Position numbers and translations under genes: made by a program | Origin: a virus | Direction: 5' to 3' (one strand) | DNA: 44,189 bases | Virus record (IMG/VR): IMGVR_UViG_3300045999_006359 | Coordinates: 1 to 44,189 of that record | In this document: positions 2,290-44,189 of the stretch, in pieces | How the letters are laid out: every line of letters begins with the position of its first letter | Position numbering within the stretch: position 1 is the first letter of the stretch | The notes under the pieces: generated by a model | The model's input: the letters and a program-made list of their open reading frames with translations, nothing else | Told to the model about the DNA's origin: nothing | Database searches by the model: none

Positions 2290-4719
2290 GTGTCTTATGC
2301 GACGCAAGACTTGCTGGCGTTTGTGCGCCAGCTGCCGGTAGGGCTGGCGTATGCGCCGATCTATGCCAAGGATCGGTTGCTCCAGTCGGGGAAAGTTTCT
2401 AAGGGCAAGACGCCGCTGGAGCGGGCGCATCATGCGGTGATGACGCCGGCGGACGTGGCGCTGCAGATCGAGCGCAAGCCGGATGTGTTCCAGGCGGTGG
2501 GGGTTTTTACGGGGCCTCGCAGTGCGGGTCTCGTGATTCTTGACGTGGATCGCAATCTGGCGAAGCTGAAAAAGAAGTGGGGTGAGTCGCTGGAGGGTGC
2601 TCCAGTCGTTACGAGTACGAAGGCGAATGCGGCGAAGTACCTGTTTCGGGTGCCTGAGGCCCTGTGGGGGTCGGTGAAGGGTTTTGGGTTGTCGGATACC
2701 GGGGCCGGGTACGAGGTGCTGTGGGGCCGTCAGGGGCTCCTCTACGGGGCTTATCCGGGCTCCAGTGATGGGAAGGCACCGGAGGGGTCATATGGGTTTG
2801 AAGGTGACCTGGAGGCGCTTCCAGAGGCTCCTGAATGGCTTGTGGCGGAGATGAAGGACCACGCCGGCAAGGAGATTGCTGATGGGGGCTTCATCAAGAA
2901 CCGCAAGGCGCTGGATTTCTCGGATCGAGATCCAGCTGAGGTGGCTGAGATTGTGCAGTCGGCCTTGCGGGTGATTCCGGGGCAGGGGGCTGGGAGTCGG
3001 GATCACTGGGTGAAGGTGGGGATGGCGATCCACTCGGAGTTGCCGAACGACCTGGGCTTGACGCTGTGGAGTGCTTGGTCGGCTGAGGATCCTGAGTATT
3101 CGGAGGAGTGGTCGGACTCCAATCCCTGTGAGGAGGTATGGAGGTCGTTCAAAAAGGGGCCGGTGACGCTGGGGACGCTGTTTTGGATGGCGGACCAGCA
3201 GATGCCGGGGCGGTTGTGGCTGTCCGAGGATCTGCGGAAGGTTGTGGCAGGTGCTGAGACAGACAGCGTTACTCGGATAACTCAGGCAACGCTTAACTTT
3301 GAGCAGGCCATGCGCCGTGTTACAGAGGCCATGGCACTGGAGGATCCAGGCCAGCGCAATTTTGAGTTGAACCAGATAACCATACAGTCTGGTTATAGAG
3401 ATCAAGCAAAACTTGAACAGGTTTATGTTGATCACGTCGGTTTCAAAGAAAGCCCCGGACAGTTGACACTCGATACCATCAAACAGTACGTAACTCCGAG
3501 GGAATATTTAATTCCTGACGTGTTACCTAGACCAGCTGTGGTTGTTGTGTATGGAGCTGGCGGCGATGGTAAATCCATGGCGCTGTGGACACTGGCTAAA
3601 CACGTTGTCGAGGGTTTGCCGTTTGTTGTACGCGGGAAACCCATGCCGGTACAGCAGGGCGGTGTTGTGATTCTTAACGGTGATCAACCGATTGCCGATT
3701 TGGTTGAGCAACTGGAGGAATGCGACTACCCGTTGGACGAGCGCACGCTGCTACGGCCTGATTGGTCACTGCAGTACTACGCGCAGTTTGTGGATTTGAT
3801 GAAAAAGCGTAAGCCATCTTTGGTAATTATTGACTCTCTTATCGGGTGCTCCGGAGGTAAAGCGTTCGACGAGAATAAGTCTGAGTTTGCCATGCCTTTA
3901 TATTGGCTGACTCGCGGTAACGGTGTTCTATGGCCTGCGGCAACAATTATGGTCATTCATCACGCAAATAAAACTGGTGGTTTTAGAGGTACATCGGCTA
4001 TCAGGGATGCGGTCACTGAAACGTGGAGTTTGAAGCGGCCAGAAGAGGGTAAAAGCGACTTGGGTAAGGCCCACCGGTTAATCACCATCGAAAAATCGCG
4101 TTGCGGTCGAAGTGGGACCCAGCTGCTGATGCAGCAGGAAAAGGACTTGAGCTATTCGATACGGGATTACACACCGGAAGTGGATGAAACGGATACCACG
4201 CCGGCTAGCCACACGGACAGGGTGCTCCAGCGTATCCGCACTGGTTATCCACGCTGGTACACCCGTACAGACCTCAACTCCGACCCTTTGCTAGGCGGGA
4301 GTACGGCAGCTACCAGAAAGGCCCTCCAGCGCCTTGTTAAGCGGGGACTGCTGCGGGTGGAAGAACACTCCACCGATCGAGGTGGGAAACCGATCCAAAC
4401 GTTCCAGGCTGTACTGGCTTGCACGCGCGGAGAGGGTGGAGATGTGTCCCATTCAGGGCAAAACCCTTCTGCTGGAACGGAAAAGCAATGGGACACCCAG
4501 TCCGCAAAGCCGGAAGTGTCCCATTGCTCCGTGCTCCCTAACGAGGCAATGGGACACACCGACACCCGAGAAACCGGGTGTCCCATTGCAAAACGCAGTG
4601 GTGATACTGGTTTTGACCTCAATGGGACAGTTGCTGAGTATCCCCGCGCGAGGGATGAACGCACAGACGCGGAACTAGATGCGCTTAAAAATGCATCAAG
4701 CAGTGCATGGTCTGTGTAA
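2290..4719 (+). CDS. Bifunctional primase-polymerase / AAA+ replicative helicase
   Basis: 809 aa from a GTG start; AGGAG at 2276-2280 gives good spacing. The N-terminal ~200 residues resemble the archaeo-eukaryotic Prim-Pol domain, with the metal-binding DVD at D85-V86-D87. Residues ~210-310 resemble a primase C-terminal (PriCT-type) helical domain. Residues ~400-640 form a RepA/DnaB-like RecA-fold ATPase: Walker A GAGGDGKS at 422-429, Walker B LVIID ending at D515, and a following HHANK motif. The C-terminal ~170 residues include a winged-helix-like segment (~640-700) and a low-complexity tail. That tail (codons ~719-780) is encoded by six alternating iterons, so its sequence may be constrained by DNA function. 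It would prime and unwind DNA for the phage DNA polymerase A. Confidence 0.92.
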   Translation: MSYATQDLLAFVRQLPVGLAYAPIYAKDRLLQSGKVSKGKTPLERAHHAVMTPADVALQIERKPDVFQAVGVFTGPRSAGLVILDVDRNLAKLKKKWGESLEGAPVVTSTKANAAKYLFRVPEALWGSVKGFGLSDTGAGYEVLWGRQGLLYGAYPGSSDGKAPEGSYGFEGDLEALPEAPEWLVAEMKDHAGKEIADGGFIKNRKALDFSDRDPAEVAEIVQSALRVIPGQGAGSRDHWVKVGMAIHSELPNDLGLTLWSAWSAEDPEYSEEWSDSNPCEEVWRSFKKGPVTLGTLFWMADQQMPGRLWLSEDLRKVVAGAETDSVTRITQATLNFEQAMRRVTEAMALEDPGQRNFELNQITIQSGYRDQAKLEQVYVDHVGFKESPGQLTLDTIKQYVTPREYLIPDVLPRPAVVVVYGAGGDGKSMALWTLAKHVVEGLPFVVRGKPMPVQQGGVVILNGDQPIADLVEQLEECDYPLDERTLLRPDWSLQYYAQFVDLMKKRKPSLVIIDSLIGCSGGKAFDENKSEFAMPLYWLTRGNGVLWPAATIMVIHHANKTGGFRGTSAIRDAVTETWSLKRPEEGKSDLGKAHRLITIEKSRCGRSGTQLLMQQEKDLSYSIRDYTPEVDETDTTPASHTDRVLQRIRTGYPRWYTRTDLNSDPLLGGSTAATRKALQRLVKRGLLRVEEHSTDRGGKPIQTFQAVLACTRGEGGDVSHSGQNPSAGTEKQWDTQSAKPEVSHCSVLPNEAMGHTDTRETGCPIAKRSGDTGFDLNGTVAEYPRARDERTDAELDALKNASSSAWSV
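4444..4630. repeat. Six alternating iterons (candidate replication origin)
   Basis: An octamer core GTCCCATT and its complement AATGGGAC alternate at 4446-4453 (+), 4487-4494 (-), 4518-4525 (+), 4548-4555 (-), 4580-4587 (+) and 4621-4628 (-). Core centres are 41, 31, 30, 32 and 41 bp apart, close to 3 or 4 helical turns, and the spacing is symmetric. Sites 2-5 share the 12-mer GTGTCCCATTGC or its complement. A further 7-bp hairpin, ACACCCG/CGGGTGT, sits between sites 4 and 5 (4562-4581). Iterons inside an initiator or replication gene are a known origin design (lambda O gene). Origin function here is inference. Confidence 0.75.
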
Positions 4720-4731
4720 ACGGGTGTAAAC

Positions 4732-4773
4732 TGATGCGGCCTTACGTACTTTGTATGCGCCGCATCACTTTTT
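4732..4773 (+). terminator. Hairpin with T-run; its loop holds the next start codon
   Basis: TGATGCGGC at 4732-4740 pairs with GCCGCATCA at 4759-4767 (9 bp), with an 18-base loop and TTTTT at 4769-4773. It lies 13 bp after the primase-helicase stop. The ATG of the next gene (4755) is in the loop, so this element could act as a terminator, a translation-repressing hairpin or the operator of the ribbon-helix-helix protein it precedes. Confidence 0.65.
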
Positions 4774-4952
4774 CGTGTTCTTCAGAAACTTCCGCGCAAC
4801 TCGACTGGCTCTGTGCTCAAACGATGCGGAAGCCTTCAAATTTGCTCAGCTTGTTGATTCACCAGGAACTCGACAAGCATCTAGACAGCCTGTCCGCAGA
4901 AGCGCGGCTAGACGCACTCGATTTAATTTATGGGCAACCTGAATCCAACTAA
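4755..4952 (+). CDS. Ribbon-helix-helix (CopG/Arc-like) DNA-binding protein
   Basis: 65 aa from ATG 4755; in-frame upstream starts exist. It has the layout of an RHH repressor: a short N-terminal strand with alternating residues (RRITFSCS), a first helix (SAQLDWLCAQTM) and a second helix (PSNLLSLLIHQELDKHL), then a helical tail. RHH dimers bind short inverted repeats. The 9-bp inverted repeat that flanks its own start codon is an obvious candidate operator. No strong Shine-Dalgarno is seen. Its target and regulon are unknown. Confidence 0.65.
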   Translation: MRRITFSCSSETSAQLDWLCAQTMRKPSNLLSLLIHQELDKHLDSLSAEARLDALDLIYGQPESN

Positions 4953-7887: not shown

Positions 7888-8237
7888 TGGCGTTCAAAAA
7901 ACAGCTTTTACCTACATGCCCGGCATGTAAAGAACCTCGTTTGCGCGTGATCGAAACTGAAGCTACTGGTGCATCCGTTCGCAGGCGTAAAAAATGCGAT
8001 GCGTGTGGACATCGTGTGACTACGCACGAGATTTCTGAGGAGGCGTTTAATGCCTCGAAACAGAATGCCGCCGTACTCAACAAAATCTACGCAGCCTTAA
8101 ATAAGGATGCTCCAGTGATGGACGTTATTAAATGTTTCGACTGTAAGTTTAATAACGGCGATCACTGTTCACTTGATTTACCTGAGTTTGGTACTGATGA
8201 GGCTTACGACTGTAATTTGTTCTCGCCCAGTCCCTGA
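7887..8237 (+). CDS. Zinc-ribbon protein with two Cys4 clusters (NrdR-like N-terminus)
   Basis: 116 aa. Cluster 1: C11-x2-C14 and C37-x2-C40 with intervening VRRRKKCDACGHRVTTHE, very like the zinc ribbon of NrdR-type regulators, but there is no ATP-cone. Cluster 2: C83-x2-C86, C94 and C109, in a CSLDLPE context. It probably binds zinc and nucleic acid or a protein partner. The gene at 8479-8793 has the same two-cluster layout, so they are paralogues or share a domain. It overlaps its neighbours on both sides (TAATG, TGATG). Confidence 0.7.
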   Translation: MAFKKQLLPTCPACKEPRLRVIETEATGASVRRRKKCDACGHRVTTHEISEEAFNASKQNAAVLNKIYAALNKDAPVMDVIKCFDCKFNNGDHCSLDLPEFGTDEAYDCNLFSPSP

Positions 8238-9340: not shown

Positions 9341-11172
9341 TGACTAAGTATCTTTTTGGGCTGGAGTATTTGCATACGCTCCAGAACGCTACGACGATTG
9401 CGTTTGACTGTGAGACGACGGGGCTCCAGCCGAAGTTTGGCGGGTTGCGGTTACTGCAGTTGGCGGCGCTGGATCGAGAGCCAGTCATCATTGATTGCTG
9501 GGATCTCAGTGATGACGACTGGGTCACAGTTGAGGAGTTTTTTGCGCAGAAGCGTTACTGGCTAGCGCACAATGCAGTGTTCGATCTTGGTTGGTTACAG
9601 GAGCACGAGATTTATCCCGAGGGGGATGTACTTTGTACCATGCTGGCTAGCCGCATCCTGACCAACGGGATGCCCAACGTGAAGCACGGGCTCCAGCACG
9701 TTGTGAAGCGTTATCTCAAGGAGGAGATCTCGAAGGAAGAGCAGAAGAGTGACTGGAGTGGGGAACTTACGGAGGAACAAATGTACTATGCCGCCAAGGA
9801 TGTGGCGGTGTTGATTGAGTTGGATGGGCCGATTAACCAGCGGATGGCAGAGGCGAATCTGCACCATGCGTGGTTTCTGGAGTGCAAGGCGTTGCCGGCG
9901 ATGGCGCAGCTTTGGCGAACCGGCCTGCCGTTTGATCGCAAGTCACTAGAAATGCTCCAGCAGGAGTTAGCGCTGGAGCATCAGGAGCGTGGGCGGGAGT
10001 TTTTACTGTCACTGGACGAAGCGTTGCCGGCCTCTAGCAAGCTACCGAGGGATCCCGATGGCAGCATCAATACGCGCTCCAAGGCCACTGGCACGGTTCG
10101 AGGTGGGGACAAGATGGAGGCTGGTTTTAACTTGAACAGCCCCAAGCAGTTGTTGGATGTCTTTACAAAGTTGCTGGGGCAGAAGCCGGTGGATGCGAAC
10201 GGGAAGGCGAGTGCCAGTCGGCAAGCGTTGCGGGAATACGCTGGCGATCACCCAGTGGTGGCTGAGTATCTGGCGTGGAAGCGGGTGGAGAAGCGGCGGC
10301 AGATGGTGGAGTCGTTGTTGAAGCACCTACAGGCGGATGGGTTTATACGTGCCAGCTACATGCAGCTCGGGGCGGATACGGGGCGCATGTCGTGTATTAG
10401 TCCCAATCTCCAGCAAGTACCGAGAGATTCAAGATTTCGTGGGTGTGTGCAGGCACCTTCCGGGTGGAAACTGGTAGTTGCGGACTATGCACAGATGGAA
10501 CTGCGGCTTGCGGCTGCAGAGGCTGAGGATGATTTGATGATCCAGGCGTTCCAGAAAGGCATGGACTTGCACACACTAACTGCGATGCAGATTTACGGAG
10601 TTGATGAACATGAAGTCACTAAAGAACAGCGCCAAGTTTCTAAGTCTGCAAACTTCGGTCTGTTGTATGGATCGGGAGCCAGAGGATTACGCAACTATGC
10701 AGCTGGAATGGGGATACAAATGGATCTTGATGAGGCGGCAGAAGTTAGAGAAAAGTTCCACGCAGCGTATAGAGGAATCAGCCGGTGGCAACGCCAAAAT
10801 GCTCTCGCAGCTGATGCGGCTAAGAGCAATCCTGCCATCAGAATTCGTCGCTCGCAACTGCGGCGGTTTCTTCCGGGTGAGCACAACAAGCTGACGACAC
10901 GCTGCAATACTCCGATCCAGGGGGCTGGTGCAGCTGTGTTAAAACGGACCCTCGGGAAGTTGTGGCCGCTTTTGCGGAAGGAAACTGAGGATGTTGTAAA
11001 ACTGGCTGGCGTGGTGCATGACGAAGTGATTCTTCTCGTGCGGCAGGATCAGGCGGATAAGTGGGCGCTCCAGCTGGCAAAAGTTATGGAAGAGGCCGAG
11101 GCAGAATGGTTGGGTGTTGTGCCAGCGCTGGCGGAAGCGCATGTAGGCGACTCGTGGCTGGAGGCGAAGTGA
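9340..11172 (+). CDS. polA: DNA polymerase A (Pol I family) with 3'-5' exonuclease
   Basis: 610 aa from ATG 9340; AGGAGG at 9327-9332 gives ideal spacing, better than the GTG at 9337. A DEDDy proofreading domain occupies residues ~1-170 (D23 and E25 in FDCETTGL, HNAVFDLGWL, YYAAKDV). The polymerase domain shows motif A VVADYAQMELR (D382), the O-helix RQVSKSANFGLLYG (R431, K435, F439, Y443) and motif C HDE at 560-562. There is no 5'-3' exonuclease domain, as is usual in phages. F439 corresponds to E. coli Pol I Phe762. It would be the replicative polymerase with the Prim-Pol/helicase. Confidence 0.97.
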   Translation: MTKYLFGLEYLHTLQNATTIAFDCETTGLQPKFGGLRLLQLAALDREPVIIDCWDLSDDDWVTVEEFFAQKRYWLAHNAVFDLGWLQEHEIYPEGDVLCTMLASRILTNGMPNVKHGLQHVVKRYLKEEISKEEQKSDWSGELTEEQMYYAAKDVAVLIELDGPINQRMAEANLHHAWFLECKALPAMAQLWRTGLPFDRKSLEMLQQELALEHQERGREFLLSLDEALPASSKLPRDPDGSINTRSKATGTVRGGDKMEAGFNLNSPKQLLDVFTKLLGQKPVDANGKASASRQALREYAGDHPVVAEYLAWKRVEKRRQMVESLLKHLQADGFIRASYMQLGADTGRMSCISPNLQQVPRDSRFRGCVQAPSGWKLVVADYAQMELRLAAAEAEDDLMIQAFQKGMDLHTLTAMQIYGVDEHEVTKEQRQVSKSANFGLLYGSGARGLRNYAAGMGIQMDLDEAAEVREKFHAAYRGISRWQRQNALAADAAKSNPAIRIRRSQLRRFLPGEHNKLTTRCNTPIQGAGAAVLKRTLGKLWPLLRKETEDVVKLAGVVHDEVILLVRQDQADKWALQLAKVMEEAEAEWLGVVPALAEAHVGDSWLEAK

Positions 11173-11354
11173 TGGACGGGCACTGCACTTGGTACTTTGC
11201 GTGGATTCGGGATAAGGCCGGGTTGATAAGAGAGGTTCCGGTGCAAGCGGAGAATACGTTTATGGCGCAGAAAGCCGCGCTGGCGTTACATCCCAGTGGG
11301 CGTGTCGTCAGAATTGCGTTGGCGCCGCCGGACTGGGATGGGGAAGACAGGTAG
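11172..11354 (+). CDS. Hypothetical protein, 60 aa
   Basis: The ATG overlaps the polA stop (TGATG). The small protein starts DGHCTWYFAWIRDKAGLIRE and has a beta-alpha-beta look (strand, helix MAQKAALALH, strand GRVVRIALAPP). No domain is recognised. It is co-translated with polA and could be an accessory factor, but nothing specific supports that. Confidence 0.6.
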   Translation: MDGHCTWYFAWIRDKAGLIREVPVQAENTFMAQKAALALHPSGRVVRIALAPPDWDGEDR

Positions 11355-11541
11355 AGAGCTTGTGATGGAGCGGCTGTACGCTGCGATCCGCCGATCCACA
11401 ACGGCGGATATTCAGCGTGCAGCCATGTTTCTGGAGTGGGCGTACGAGGTAAGGAAAGGGTGCGCCAAGCAGAGGGCGGGGGCGCGGAAAGCCCAGGCGT
11501 ATGCGTGGCGGAAACAGGTGGATGCTCCAGCTCGCTGGTAA
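11338..11541 (+). CDS. Hypothetical basic helical protein, 67 aa
   Basis: ATG 11338 overlaps the previous gene by 17 bases; ATG 11365 is an alternative that would avoid the overlap and give 58 residues. The protein is helical and basic (MERLYAAIRRSTTADIQRAA, then KQRAGARKAQAYAWRKQ). No family is recognised. It ends just before a candidate promoter. Confidence 0.5.
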   Translation: MGKTGRELVMERLYAAIRRSTTADIQRAAMFLEWAYEVRKGCAKQRAGARKAQAYAWRKQVDAPARW

Positions 11542-25700: not shown

Positions 25701-26742
25701 CTGTACCGTTATTGCGGTTGGAAGCTGCATATCGTTGGCCGTTGACTTCGACAATGCCGAACTGACGGCCGTAGTTTCGGCCCGTTCCATACCATTGGGG
25801 ATTGCCGCAAAGCTGGGTAAGCTTTGCAGACATCGACCGAAGAGCTTGGTCGTTCGCAGGGCCGTAGTACGGAAGAACCTCGAAGTTCATCCTGTACGAC
25901 GTCCCATTAGGGAGGGCGTTGTATACGCCGAAACGGCTCTGAGTAGATGGCGAGAATGTGTGGCTGAAGGCCTCGCCGATGAGGCCCGACAGTGTCATGG
26001 CCTTGAACGAGTTCTCGTCGTCTTTTTCGTCGGCACGGAAATCACCGACGATTGAATTTCTGCCGCGTAAGCGGCTATCGGCGGGGGTGTAGTTACTGGT
26101 GTTGGCGATTGGAGCGCCACCGGGGTTGTAGTACCAGCGGTAGTCAGAGTCCGGGAAGCTGTCGAGGGGAAGTTGACCGAGGTAGACGCCTGCTTTGTTT
26201 TCGTTGACGTTTGCTGGGCGGTGCATCGGAGATTGACCGGCCAGGAAAACCATCTCGACGCTTTGATAGCCGCCCCAGCTGTAGGTGCGGGACCACACCA
26301 GCTTGGGGGCGATCATCACGCCTCCTACTTGCCTTGCAGTGGCGTCTCCGGGAAACTGGACAGACTTCTGTTCTGTGAAAACAATCGGGATAACTTCGTT
26401 GTATCGCGTCAGTTCCTGGTTGGCTTGAAAGCCGTATGTCGGAGCGAACCGATCTCGCCCGACGATGCTGTCTAACGTGCGATTCTGCGGTTGGCGTTGC
26501 TGCGGAACATTCGGCTTGGGTGTTAATAGGTAGCTAACACCTTGTAGAACCAGGCCGACAATAAACAGCACGATTGCTGTCGGCTCGTTTTTAATATCGG
26601 GGATATGTGCGTACTCAGCCGGGCGTTCGCGGCTGAGCCAGTAGACCTGGTGTTTGAAATCAAGGTATTCGGCTTCTGTACAGCCAATCTGTGCAATTAG
26701 CTGGCGCTCGTACGGAAGGAGGCGCTGCGATAGCAGCGGCAT
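22717..26742 (-). CDS. Tail tip / central fibre protein (lambda J-like)
   Basis: 1341 aa from ATG 26742 (PLLSQRLLPYERQLIAQIGC); a longer reading from 26817 overlaps the upstream gene more. A hydrophobic stretch near residues 55-75 (AIVLFIVGLVLQGVSYLL) is followed by a Pro/Gln linker and large beta-rich regions. The C-terminal third (QLEYIQAQERLPIRALVRYR; VVSRRISANGP; PLGLNLAPGDFIRV) resembles the tip attachment protein J / phage-tail-3 family. It would cap the tail tube and connect to the fibres. Confidence 0.8.
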   Translation of the reverse strand: MPLLSQRLLPYERQLIAQIGCTEAEYLDFKHQVYWLSRERPAEYAHIPDIKNEPTAIVLFIVGLVLQGVSYLLTPKPNVPQQRQPQNRTLDSIVGRDRFAPTYGFQANQELTRYNEVIPIVFTEQKSVQFPGDATARQVGGVMIAPKLVWSRTYSWGGYQSVEMVFLAGQSPMHRPANVNENKAGVYLGQLPLDSFPDSDYRWYYNPGGAPIANTSNYTPADSRLRGRNSIVGDFRADEKDDENSFKAMTLSGLIGEAFSHTFSPSTQSRFGVYNALPNGTSYRMNFEVLPYYGPANDQALRSMSAKLTQLCGNPQWYGTGRNYGRQFGIVEVNGQRYAASNRNNGTEVNVVVDKNNPNNSTRIKVVYNAAEVDQKVAYNKDLYERNIPAPEGWQGVPGADRNGVQNYLRPESDTVDNLSIRNSIKTEHEQQDDLLKLGTRWMIGNCLWEVEKREPGDRVFDKTEKTVFSVTLRAVAIFDHGNKGYVGVCDYGFVTTRTHLPEGNRGPLYKIDSAWYPICKSEIAVIQNSRRCNVTEIGIKSNVWARLNGICNFNSLPTVLGKFEYDAGQVTATSGTIQSYVRRASFFNLYARPADTTYGFNDGWVKLNQFPFCVVGSTPQDQYSFIRIAQPLKQFEFRFRPITSGELVHILGIDKDVRIGSRTVKAPCIRLNIDGVTVAGDPNPYTDEIKTDHGTFTIRTRGYIDSIASLALNSEMVSSLKTTTSERVITTLTSVRFVQAIVVTGTRTATAREISNGITRKINKDPDPNVDTFPVPTWPTATGAKAGVEYTFDANDQEDFKFVSGSKVIRMAMRLRVENFGTTGGNARALYWTIANGGEIPATFSGDWKSGDTFTIDSKLFDPNQTVIRYTFQVNAATQIRVPGTVSGERIFDEYAGISEVSYYNSLITRSCDNNPEHEITYVNESLANDAARDGRASYIGCAMAGLKIRSGINLDRLEQLHIYQKEGIRVTKLRVKAPAEQNNPDPVGPSNIFTDLVYYLLTDRNTGVGNLVSPDLIDVTQLRRTGTFLEKNRLFFDDVLVEQQNIREFFARVSTSLLCNLVTRAGKFSIEPALPIDSTTYSIYDVKVPIKGIFTEGNIIEESFQLEYIQAQERLPIRALVRYREESANRFPQEKTVVVSRRISANGPIQDGPLEEFSFSHITSQYHAELFAKFALSSRHHRTHAVTFKTTPLGLNLAPGDFIRVVTQSSYVEPTASGIIRNDGVIVSPTSLQIGQTYSMYIWSALSSEVGEANITVRALPGEPATPWAETTRNAVFAVKETKVNSLVYMVDSINLDEDGLVQITASYFPVNSQGESLIADELKPTSGMFSVIADENPN

Positions 26743-39139: not shown

Positions 39140-40390
39140 TTACCACACACGATAGTTGGTCTTGCCGAGGGATTCTGGCTTGGCAAGATTGAAAGTTTGA
39201 AGGCATAAATAGCCAAGAGCGTCGAAAGCATGGTCAACTCCAAGGTTTTTGTTGGGGAGGCCCGTGTTAGGGGCGTAGGTCAGGGTGCGAAGGGACTTGA
39301 TGAGTTCCTTGCAGCGGGGGTGGATGAAGAGGCGGCGGGTTCCAGTTGCATCGAGGAGGGCGGTGTTGACGCAGGTGATCTTGTCGCGGATTTTCCAGGG
39401 GTTGCGGGGGCTGGAGACGGTGAAGCCGGACTTGCGGAGGATGTTGTGGTCGGTGGCTCCAACGCCGGAGGTTTTGCGGGCGCCGCCGGTGGGGTCTGGG
39501 CAGGCGATGATGCGGCGCTCCACGCCGTAGCGGGTTTGGATTTCTTCGCAGAGATCCCAAGTGGTGGCGCCACCCGTCATGATGATTTCGTCGAATACCC
39601 AGAGGACGTCGCCCTTTTTGACCGCGCAGACTGCGGACATGGGGTCCACGTTGAAGTCCACGCCCAAAAGGAGGGGGAGGACGGGGAGGTCTTGGACTTC
39701 TTTGTTGATGTTGGCGTCCGAGAAGGAGATGGCGACGAGGCCGGAGAGATTCTCGAAGCTGGCCTCGAATTCTTGGCGGAAGGTTCGAGCGTCGAGTTGG
39801 GCGCGGGCGGCTTCGATTTCCTCGGGCGGGACGTTGTCGCCTTCGATCGTGGTGAATTGCCAGCGGTGCCAGTCGGGGTCGTCGTTTTCGCAGTAACACC
39901 AGAGGTCGTAGAACCAGCTGGCGGTGCCGTCTGGGGTGGAGATGAAGAGGGCCCAGCCCTGTTTGTCGGCCAAGGCGGGGCGGATGACCTCGAACCAGAC
40001 CTCGGCGTCCATGAAGGCGGCTTCGTCGAGGACCACGCCGGCGAGGCTTCTGCCTCGGAGGGCCATTGCGTTTTCGGTGCCCTTGAGTTCGATTGTGGAG
40101 CCGTTAACTAGCTCGATTTTGAGGTCGGTTTCGTTTTTGCTCTTGATCCAGGCCTTCGGGACAAGGCGTTTCATTACTTTCCAGGCGATGTCCTTCGCCA
40201 TTCGGTATGTGGGGGCCGCGTAGAAGAATGTTTCGCCCGGCTTTTCGATCGCCCCACGCAGCAATTCGATACACGACAGGTAGCTTTTTCCGAAGCGGCG
40301 GCCGGCGACGAGGACCCGGAAACGTTTTCGGCTTGAAAATACTTGGCCTTGGGCGTATCTGAGGGTTAATGCTCCAGCAGATTCGGGCAT
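39140..40390 (-). CDS. terL: Terminase large subunit
   Basis: 416 aa, ATG 40390. ATPase domain: Walker A AGRRFGKS (G30-S36), coupling motif around STPDG, Walker B GVVLDEAAF (D122, E123). The RNase H-like nuclease begins at GVDFNVDP (D245) and ends with LGVDHAFDALGYL. It packages DNA through the portal and cuts it at termination. -10 TACCCT 29 nt upstream, overlapping the end of the methyltransferase gene. Confidence 0.95.
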   Translation of the reverse strand: MPESAGALTLRYAQGQVFSSRKRFRVLVAGRRFGKSYLSCIELLRGAIEKPGETFFYAAPTYRMAKDIAWKVMKRLVPKAWIKSKNETDLKIELVNGSTIELKGTENAMALRGRSLAGVVLDEAAFMDAEVWFEVIRPALADKQGWALFISTPDGTASWFYDLWCYCENDDPDWHRWQFTTIEGDNVPPEEIEAARAQLDARTFRQEFEASFENLSGLVAISFSDANINKEVQDLPVLPLLLGVDFNVDPMSAVCAVKKGDVLWVFDEIIMTGGATTWDLCEEIQTRYGVERRIIACPDPTGGARKTSGVGATDHNILRKSGFTVSSPRNPWKIRDKITCVNTALLDATGTRRLFIHPRCKELIKSLRTLTYAPNTGLPNKNLGVDHAFDALGYLCLQTFNLAKPESLGKTNYRVW

Positions 40391-44032: not shown

Positions 44033-44064
44033 GAGGCTAGGCACTTACACCTAGCCTCTTTTTT
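44033..44064 (+). terminator. Intrinsic terminator at the right end
   Basis: GAGGCTAGG (44033-44041), an 8-base loop and CCTAGCCTC (44050-44058), then six Ts. It ends the 43436-44025 transcript. Read on the minus strand, its downstream flank is the stop codon of the Cys-repeat gene. Confidence 0.95.
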
Positions 44065-44189
44065 ATGGCCGCCGGACGCAATAGGCCGAACCTGTAGCGC
44101 TCCACCCCAAGGGGCAGTTGTTCACCTTGACCACGGCAGGTCTGGCAGCCTTGGCGGGGACGCAATAGGACCCTTGGACGTACCAGCCA
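44063..44189 (-). CDS. Cys-repeat protein, 3' part (continues from 1-194)
   Basis: The right repeat carries the C-terminal two thirds of the small secreted protein and its true stop, TAA at 44065-44063. The 5' part, including the ATG, is at 129-194 when the ends are joined. Confidence 0.6.
   Translation of the reverse strand, partial: GWYVQGSYCVPAKAARPAVVKVNNCPLGWSATGSAYCVRRP
44064..44189. repeat. Terminal direct repeat, right copy
   Basis: Identical to 4-129. Preceded by the T-run of the terminator rather than the gaa that precedes the left copy. Confidence 0.95.

Follow-up and report, generated by a model that had tools for sequence, protein, structure and literature searches.

The window analysed here is a single stretch of phage DNA of 44,189 nucleotides. 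Its two ends share 126 identical bases (4-129 and 44064-44189), which fits a closed or terminally redundant, complete genome. Towards one end lies the gene for a primase-helicase, in which an N-terminal primase region is followed by PriCT-2 (residues 223-301), a RecA-type ATPase (residues 394-563), a C-terminal winged helix, a disordered linker and a C-terminal helix. An array of short repeats (iterons) occupies codons 719-780 of this gene, inside the predicted disordered linker. The features of the locus are as follows.

2290..4719, + strand: primase-helicase gene, 809 aa (Pfam domains, structure model)
4210..4410, + strand: winged-helix codons (proposed array reader; about residues 641-707; AF2 model and separate fold)
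4315..4317, + strand: codon of R676, the top covarying column, in the recognition helix (about residues 672-684)
4417..4659, + strand: codons of the disordered linker that contains the array (about residues 710-790, pLDDT near 25)
4445..4453, + strand: iteron site 1, TGTCCCATT
4487..4495, - strand: iteron site 2
4517..4525, + strand: iteron site 3
4548..4556, - strand: iteron site 4
4579..4587, + strand: iteron site 5
4621..4629, - strand: iteron site 6
4446-4453 (+), 4487-4494 (-), 4518-4525 (+), 4548-4555 (-), 4580-4587 (+), 4621-4628 (-): copies of GTCCCATT, by sequence count
4666..4713, + strand: codons of the conserved C-terminal helix, after the array (residues 793-808)
4707-4949: RHH-like ORF, directly following the primase-helicase gene (no Pfam match)

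The N terminus of the primase-helicase shows similarity to primases, and the protein families found in the sequence were PriCT-2 and AAA_25; Toprim was not among them. The AF2 model was built with 68 relatives. The ATPase region structurally matches DnaB and RSF1010 RepA (Foldseek: 1nlf, 1olo and 1g8y), with a target-normalised TM of up to 0.65 for RSF1010 RepA, to which the sequence match is weak. When modelled alone, the winged helix has the order H-H-H-E-E, and it resembles PDB entries of winged-helix proteins. Among relatives, mean pairwise amino-acid identity falls from 84% in the N-terminal domains to 55% in the winged helix and 27% in the linker whose codons hold the array, in agreement with an earlier suggestion that the tail of this protein looks free to vary. 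On the 3' side of the variable linker, a helix of the form RTxxELxxLxxxAxxxW is kept in nearly all relatives; it may serve as a peptide for docking to a partner in the replisome.

At the 3' end of the gene, six copies of GTCCCATT follow one another in strictly alternating orientation, with mirror-like centre spacings of 41, 31, 30, 32 and 41 bp. Counting and coordinates thus confirm the six sites, their alternation and their spacings as given in a preliminary description of this DNA, and also its 12-mer common to sites 2-5, which is GCAATGGGACAC. Outside the array, the whole 44-kb window holds one further copy of GTCCCATT, at 25901; shuffles give an expectation of 0.97 for the window, and in 100 of them a count of 7 was never reached. 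The 9-mer AATGGGACA occurs in the window at the six array sites only and, since the shared ends indicate a complete or closed genome, its absence elsewhere should apply to the whole phage. The tail of the gene contains 6 GGACA cores against 1.77 after synonymous codons are redrawn.

Four scans of viral contigs yielded 205 locus records with the gene, some of which were repeat fetches of one contig; 124 of these are distinct at the 3' end and collapse into 68 clusters at 93% identity. The same gene end bears such an array in the 124 distinct relatives, with a mean of 8.0 GGACA/TGTCC cores per tail versus 2.5 when synonymous codons are redrawn (excess at p<0.005 in 94 of the 124 loci), and the cores occupy all reading frames and both orientations. 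The GGACA core is constant and the bases 5' of it differ between lineages: AATG-GGACA in the window phage, and GTG-GGACA, AGTT-GGACA, AGCT-GGACA, AAAC-GGACA, AACC-GGACA and AGGG-GGACA in others. Bases -5 to -1 carry about 1.0-1.5 bits within one locus (controls, 0.45-0.73) and only 0.1-0.4 bits when pooled across loci. The lineage 9-mer was counted 209 times in tails versus 6 times in 504 kb elsewhere (3.8 by chance); with no enrichment outside the tail, a dispersed operator was rejected. The three nearest relatives retain the sites and differ in the spacers, site 6 being changed by one base in two of them.

A search by DNA pattern alone found 11 viral contigs, 10 of which have the primase-helicase gene at the array, and a gene-less array, as in a satellite, was accordingly rejected. 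The exception (L227) has an intergenic cluster of AATGGGACA-type / GGGACA repeats with an AT-rich middle at 11135-11435. Its contig encodes a VapE-type protein and no primase-helicase homolog, and comparison of the winged helices of the two proteins gave no detectable relation; these repeats may be a comparable iteron that serves an unrelated initiator. Annotated phages gave only three weak matches to the primase-helicase protein, and S-CBS4 gp082 has no array. Genome contigs gave four relatives, each on a metagenome-assembled contig.

The arrangement of the sites is ordered. A mirror partner in opposite orientation, no more than 1 bp off, is present for 83% of sites versus 38% in a fixed-ends null, and dyad symmetry is perfect at 32 of 67 loci (null, 0.06). 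Distances between sites of the same orientation follow a 10.3-bp period with a resultant of 0.73, against a null maximum of 0.15. With this symmetry and phase, the spaced DNA array is kept among relatives while the encoded residues change, which is what the preliminary description had expected of an origin. Measured from core start to core start (> and < for the two orientations), the commonest layout in relatives is > 45 < 16 > ... < 16 > 45 <, and that of the window is > 46 < 26 > 35 < 27 > 46 <; the inner sites of the window are the commonest layout displaced by one helical turn. A second class of layout reads > 51 > 10 > 10 > 10 > ... < 10 < 10 < 10 < 51 <. The central gap differs across loci (34, 45, 46, 79, 80 and 103) without keeping to the helical repeat, which suggests a pair of rigid half-arrays joined by a flexible centre.

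Alternating copies are able to pair, and their concerted change preserves pairing, so that the inverted copies might be read as RNA hairpins in the primase-helicase messenger. However, some relatives, L063 and L068 among them, have runs of four direct copies at a spacing of exactly 10 bp, and neither helical phase nor covariation with a DNA-binding helix (see below) would be expected of an RNA element; we regard this reading as very unlikely. A relative with 57% identity on a metagenome-assembled contig (L213) has an exactly symmetric array, > 46 < 13 < 14 > 55 < 14 > 13 > 46 <, with a stop codon (8218-8220) inside it; three of its sites lie beyond the frame, and the protein ends without the conserved C-terminal helix, a truncation that could come from a single assembly indel. 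The array is conserved as DNA, beyond the requirement of the protein.

On a tree built from residues 5-600, branches were counted on which protein residues and motif bases change together. Among 393 variable columns, the highest rank for co-change with motif bases -2 and -1 goes to residue 676, which lies in the recognition helix of the winged helix (13 shared branches versus 6.9 expected, p=0.002). Across the 68 clusters, K676 goes with G at -1 in 11 of 11 and never with T at -2, G676 with A at -1 in 8 of 8, T676 with T at -1 in 5 of 5 and Q676 with TT in 2 of 2. R676 is accompanied by TG in 19 of 20 clusters without T679 or acids, and by C at -1 in 8 of 9 clusters with acids at 673 and 680, the exception having D673; the bases are mixed for S676 and A676. 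The window phage (R676, TG) fits this table. Lysine and arginine at 676 differ at base -2 with a Fisher p of 9e-8, uncorrected for relatedness. On the tree, K676 appears at scattered places next to R, G and T, and the association thus either arose repeatedly or helix and iterons moved jointly; either course makes them a pair. The covariation could be inflated by relatedness and by linkage between winged helix and array, yet residue 676 outranks the other columns of the same domain.

Because the iteron covaries with its recognition helix, the primase-helicase is favoured, from the sequence comparison, as the protein that would bind the array. Of the two binders put forward in the preliminary description, the helicase is thus preferred and the RHH protein disfavoured: the RHH-like ORF, which that description had correctly placed directly after the primase-helicase gene, also lies directly downstream in a few relatives and is missing from most relatives with an array, which makes it an unlikely reader. 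The position of this ORF would suit an operator or partition site for the RHH protein, but the same absence, together with the covariation with the helicase, leaves such a role with very little probability. Likewise, a packaging (pac) signal within the gene has a precedent as a DNA signal inside a phage gene, P22 pac inside gene 3 (PMC8022706), but that is the small terminase gene, whereas the terminase of the window lies at its opposite end (39140-40390) and the array covaries with a replication protein; a pac site is extremely improbable.

Two further inverted repeats lie in this region. The ACACCCG/CGGGTGT hairpin reported within the array exists (4561-4568/4575-4582), but a conserved role for it does not hold: it looks incidental, because it is absent from the three closest relatives. 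The second, AAACTGATGCGGC/GCCGCATCACTTT at 4728-4771, overlaps the point where the RHH-like gene may start and could be its operator or a terminator.

Taken together, the sequence comparisons make it probable that the array is the initiator-binding part of a replication origin, placed inside the gene of its own initiator and read by the winged helix. In each site, the C-terminal winged helix would recognise the invariant GGACA together with a 5' extension private to the lineage, which is AATG in the window phage. Sites of the same orientation lie on one face of the DNA, and the array forms two inverted half-arrays, on which two initiator assemblies would most likely dock face to face. The RecA-fold helicase rings of the docked assemblies could then open the DNA, and the N-terminal primase would prime synthesis after opening.

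The preliminary description had proposed a check for a GC-skew minimum near 4.5 kb. There is none, nor a sign change, at this position, and most of the window has positive skew. AT content around the array is 0.36-0.51 with no peak, and no AT-rich unwinding element was found beside the array, not even in relatives whose central gap spans 79-103 bp. We infer binding, helicase loading by two assemblies, the direction of replication and origin activity; the last stays at this level because both the skew minimum and the unwinding element are missing. Over the whole window, GCTCCAG (37 versus 10) and TTCCAG (41 versus 11) are biased to the + strand whatever the gene direction, with no strand flip of either at the array.

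A heptamer, TGAATGG, recurs upstream of the gene; in the window it lies at 220, 339, 358, 496, 599, 729, 843, 1233 and 1397 (region 220-1403). It is found on the + strand 317 times versus 2, at 38 times the frequency expected from base composition, and in 45 of 45 relatives tested the cluster lies mostly 1-2.5 kb upstream of the primase-helicase. It is constant between lineages, unlike the iterons, and spans opposite-strand genes and all frames. It is possible that TGAATGG is a strand-specific priming, packaging or RNA signal; a literature search for it returned nothing relevant.

These observations bear on a further reading, in which the winged helix binds the array mainly for copy control, incompatibility or expression control (handcuffing, roadblock) and initiation takes place elsewhere. 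The covariation indicates pairing with the protein and not origin firing, the array has neither unwinding element nor skew signal, and the heptamer cluster, which is unrelated to the iterons, could be a further part of the replication region. However, the origin is usually where iteron arrays adjoin an initiator that has helicase and primase domains, and a dyad-symmetric layout is better suited to loading two helicases than to simple control. We consider such a control element rather unlikely, and the initiator-binding part of an origin remains the preferred reading.

The pairing of array and recognition helix may, somewhat short of probable, be a private code of replicon identity, in which GGACA is fixed and the neighbouring bases, along with a few residues of the helix, would be rewritten again and again. 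Related phages would then neither fire, titrate nor attack one another's origins, and the residue-to-base table would be a natural specificity code of winged helices. Satellites, superinfecting relatives or nucleases directed at origins could supply the pressure; such nucleases can drive iteron change, as with PLE satellites and ICP1 (PMC8263062). Protein and DNA changes can be read side by side in more than 100 natural initiator-origin pairs, so that a winged-helix recognition code and the layout rules of the origin (symmetry, phase, gap) become directly testable. The codons of a disordered protein linker are proposed to double as DNA-binding sites, and the pattern offers a route to candidate origins in uncultured phages.

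A search that covered few subscription journals found no published description of a primase-helicase family bearing such an array. In the lambda origin, an AT-rich element lies beside the iterons; no such element was found here. For lambda O, iterons are known to lie within the initiator gene, and the same has been proposed for P22-like gene 18 proteins; among lambda O and the gene 18 products of P22 and phage L, related initiators have differing iterons in their coding regions (PMC8022706), as here. The repeat proposed for phage L is TGTCCAACGGA (PMC8022706), in which TGTCC may be a coincidence. Lambda O and gp18 act as initiators apart from the helicase, which they recruit, whereas primase, helicase and winged helix are here in one protein, with the reader C-terminal and the array dyad-symmetric with half-arrays; Pfam and PHROGs gave no homology between lambda O/gp18 and the primase-helicase.

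Other systems share the architecture of the protein. Phage P4 alpha likewise combines primase, helicase and origin-binding winged helix, according to the work cited in PMC4234260; its primase is described there as Toprim, whereas ours is of the PriCT-2-linked type, with a RecA-fold helicase and the array inside the gene. ORF904 of pRN1 similarly joins primase, helicase and C-terminal winged helix, and has an origin element at the gene's 3' end, but that element is a stem-loop of ~100 bp downstream, without iterons (PMC4234260), in place of an iteron array inside the gene. RepA of RSF1010 is a hexameric RecA-fold helicase whose fold the ATPase of the primase-helicase resembles; RSF1010 splits over three separate polypeptides (PMC4234260) the functions that are here in one protein. 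In another primase family, a winged helix has been proposed as the origin recogniser (PMC5862659). In SaPI Rep and SCCmec Cch2, the iterons are bound by the C-terminal domain of an initiator helicase (PMC7581432). Those iterons lie in noncoding DNA downstream of the gene, whereas ours are inside the ORF (partly outside in L213), and the ATPase here is RecA/RepA-like. As in the present family, SaPI Rep and Cch2 combine an initiator helicase and a C-terminal reader with short iterons at the 3' region of the gene, and two hexamers have been proposed (PMC7581432).
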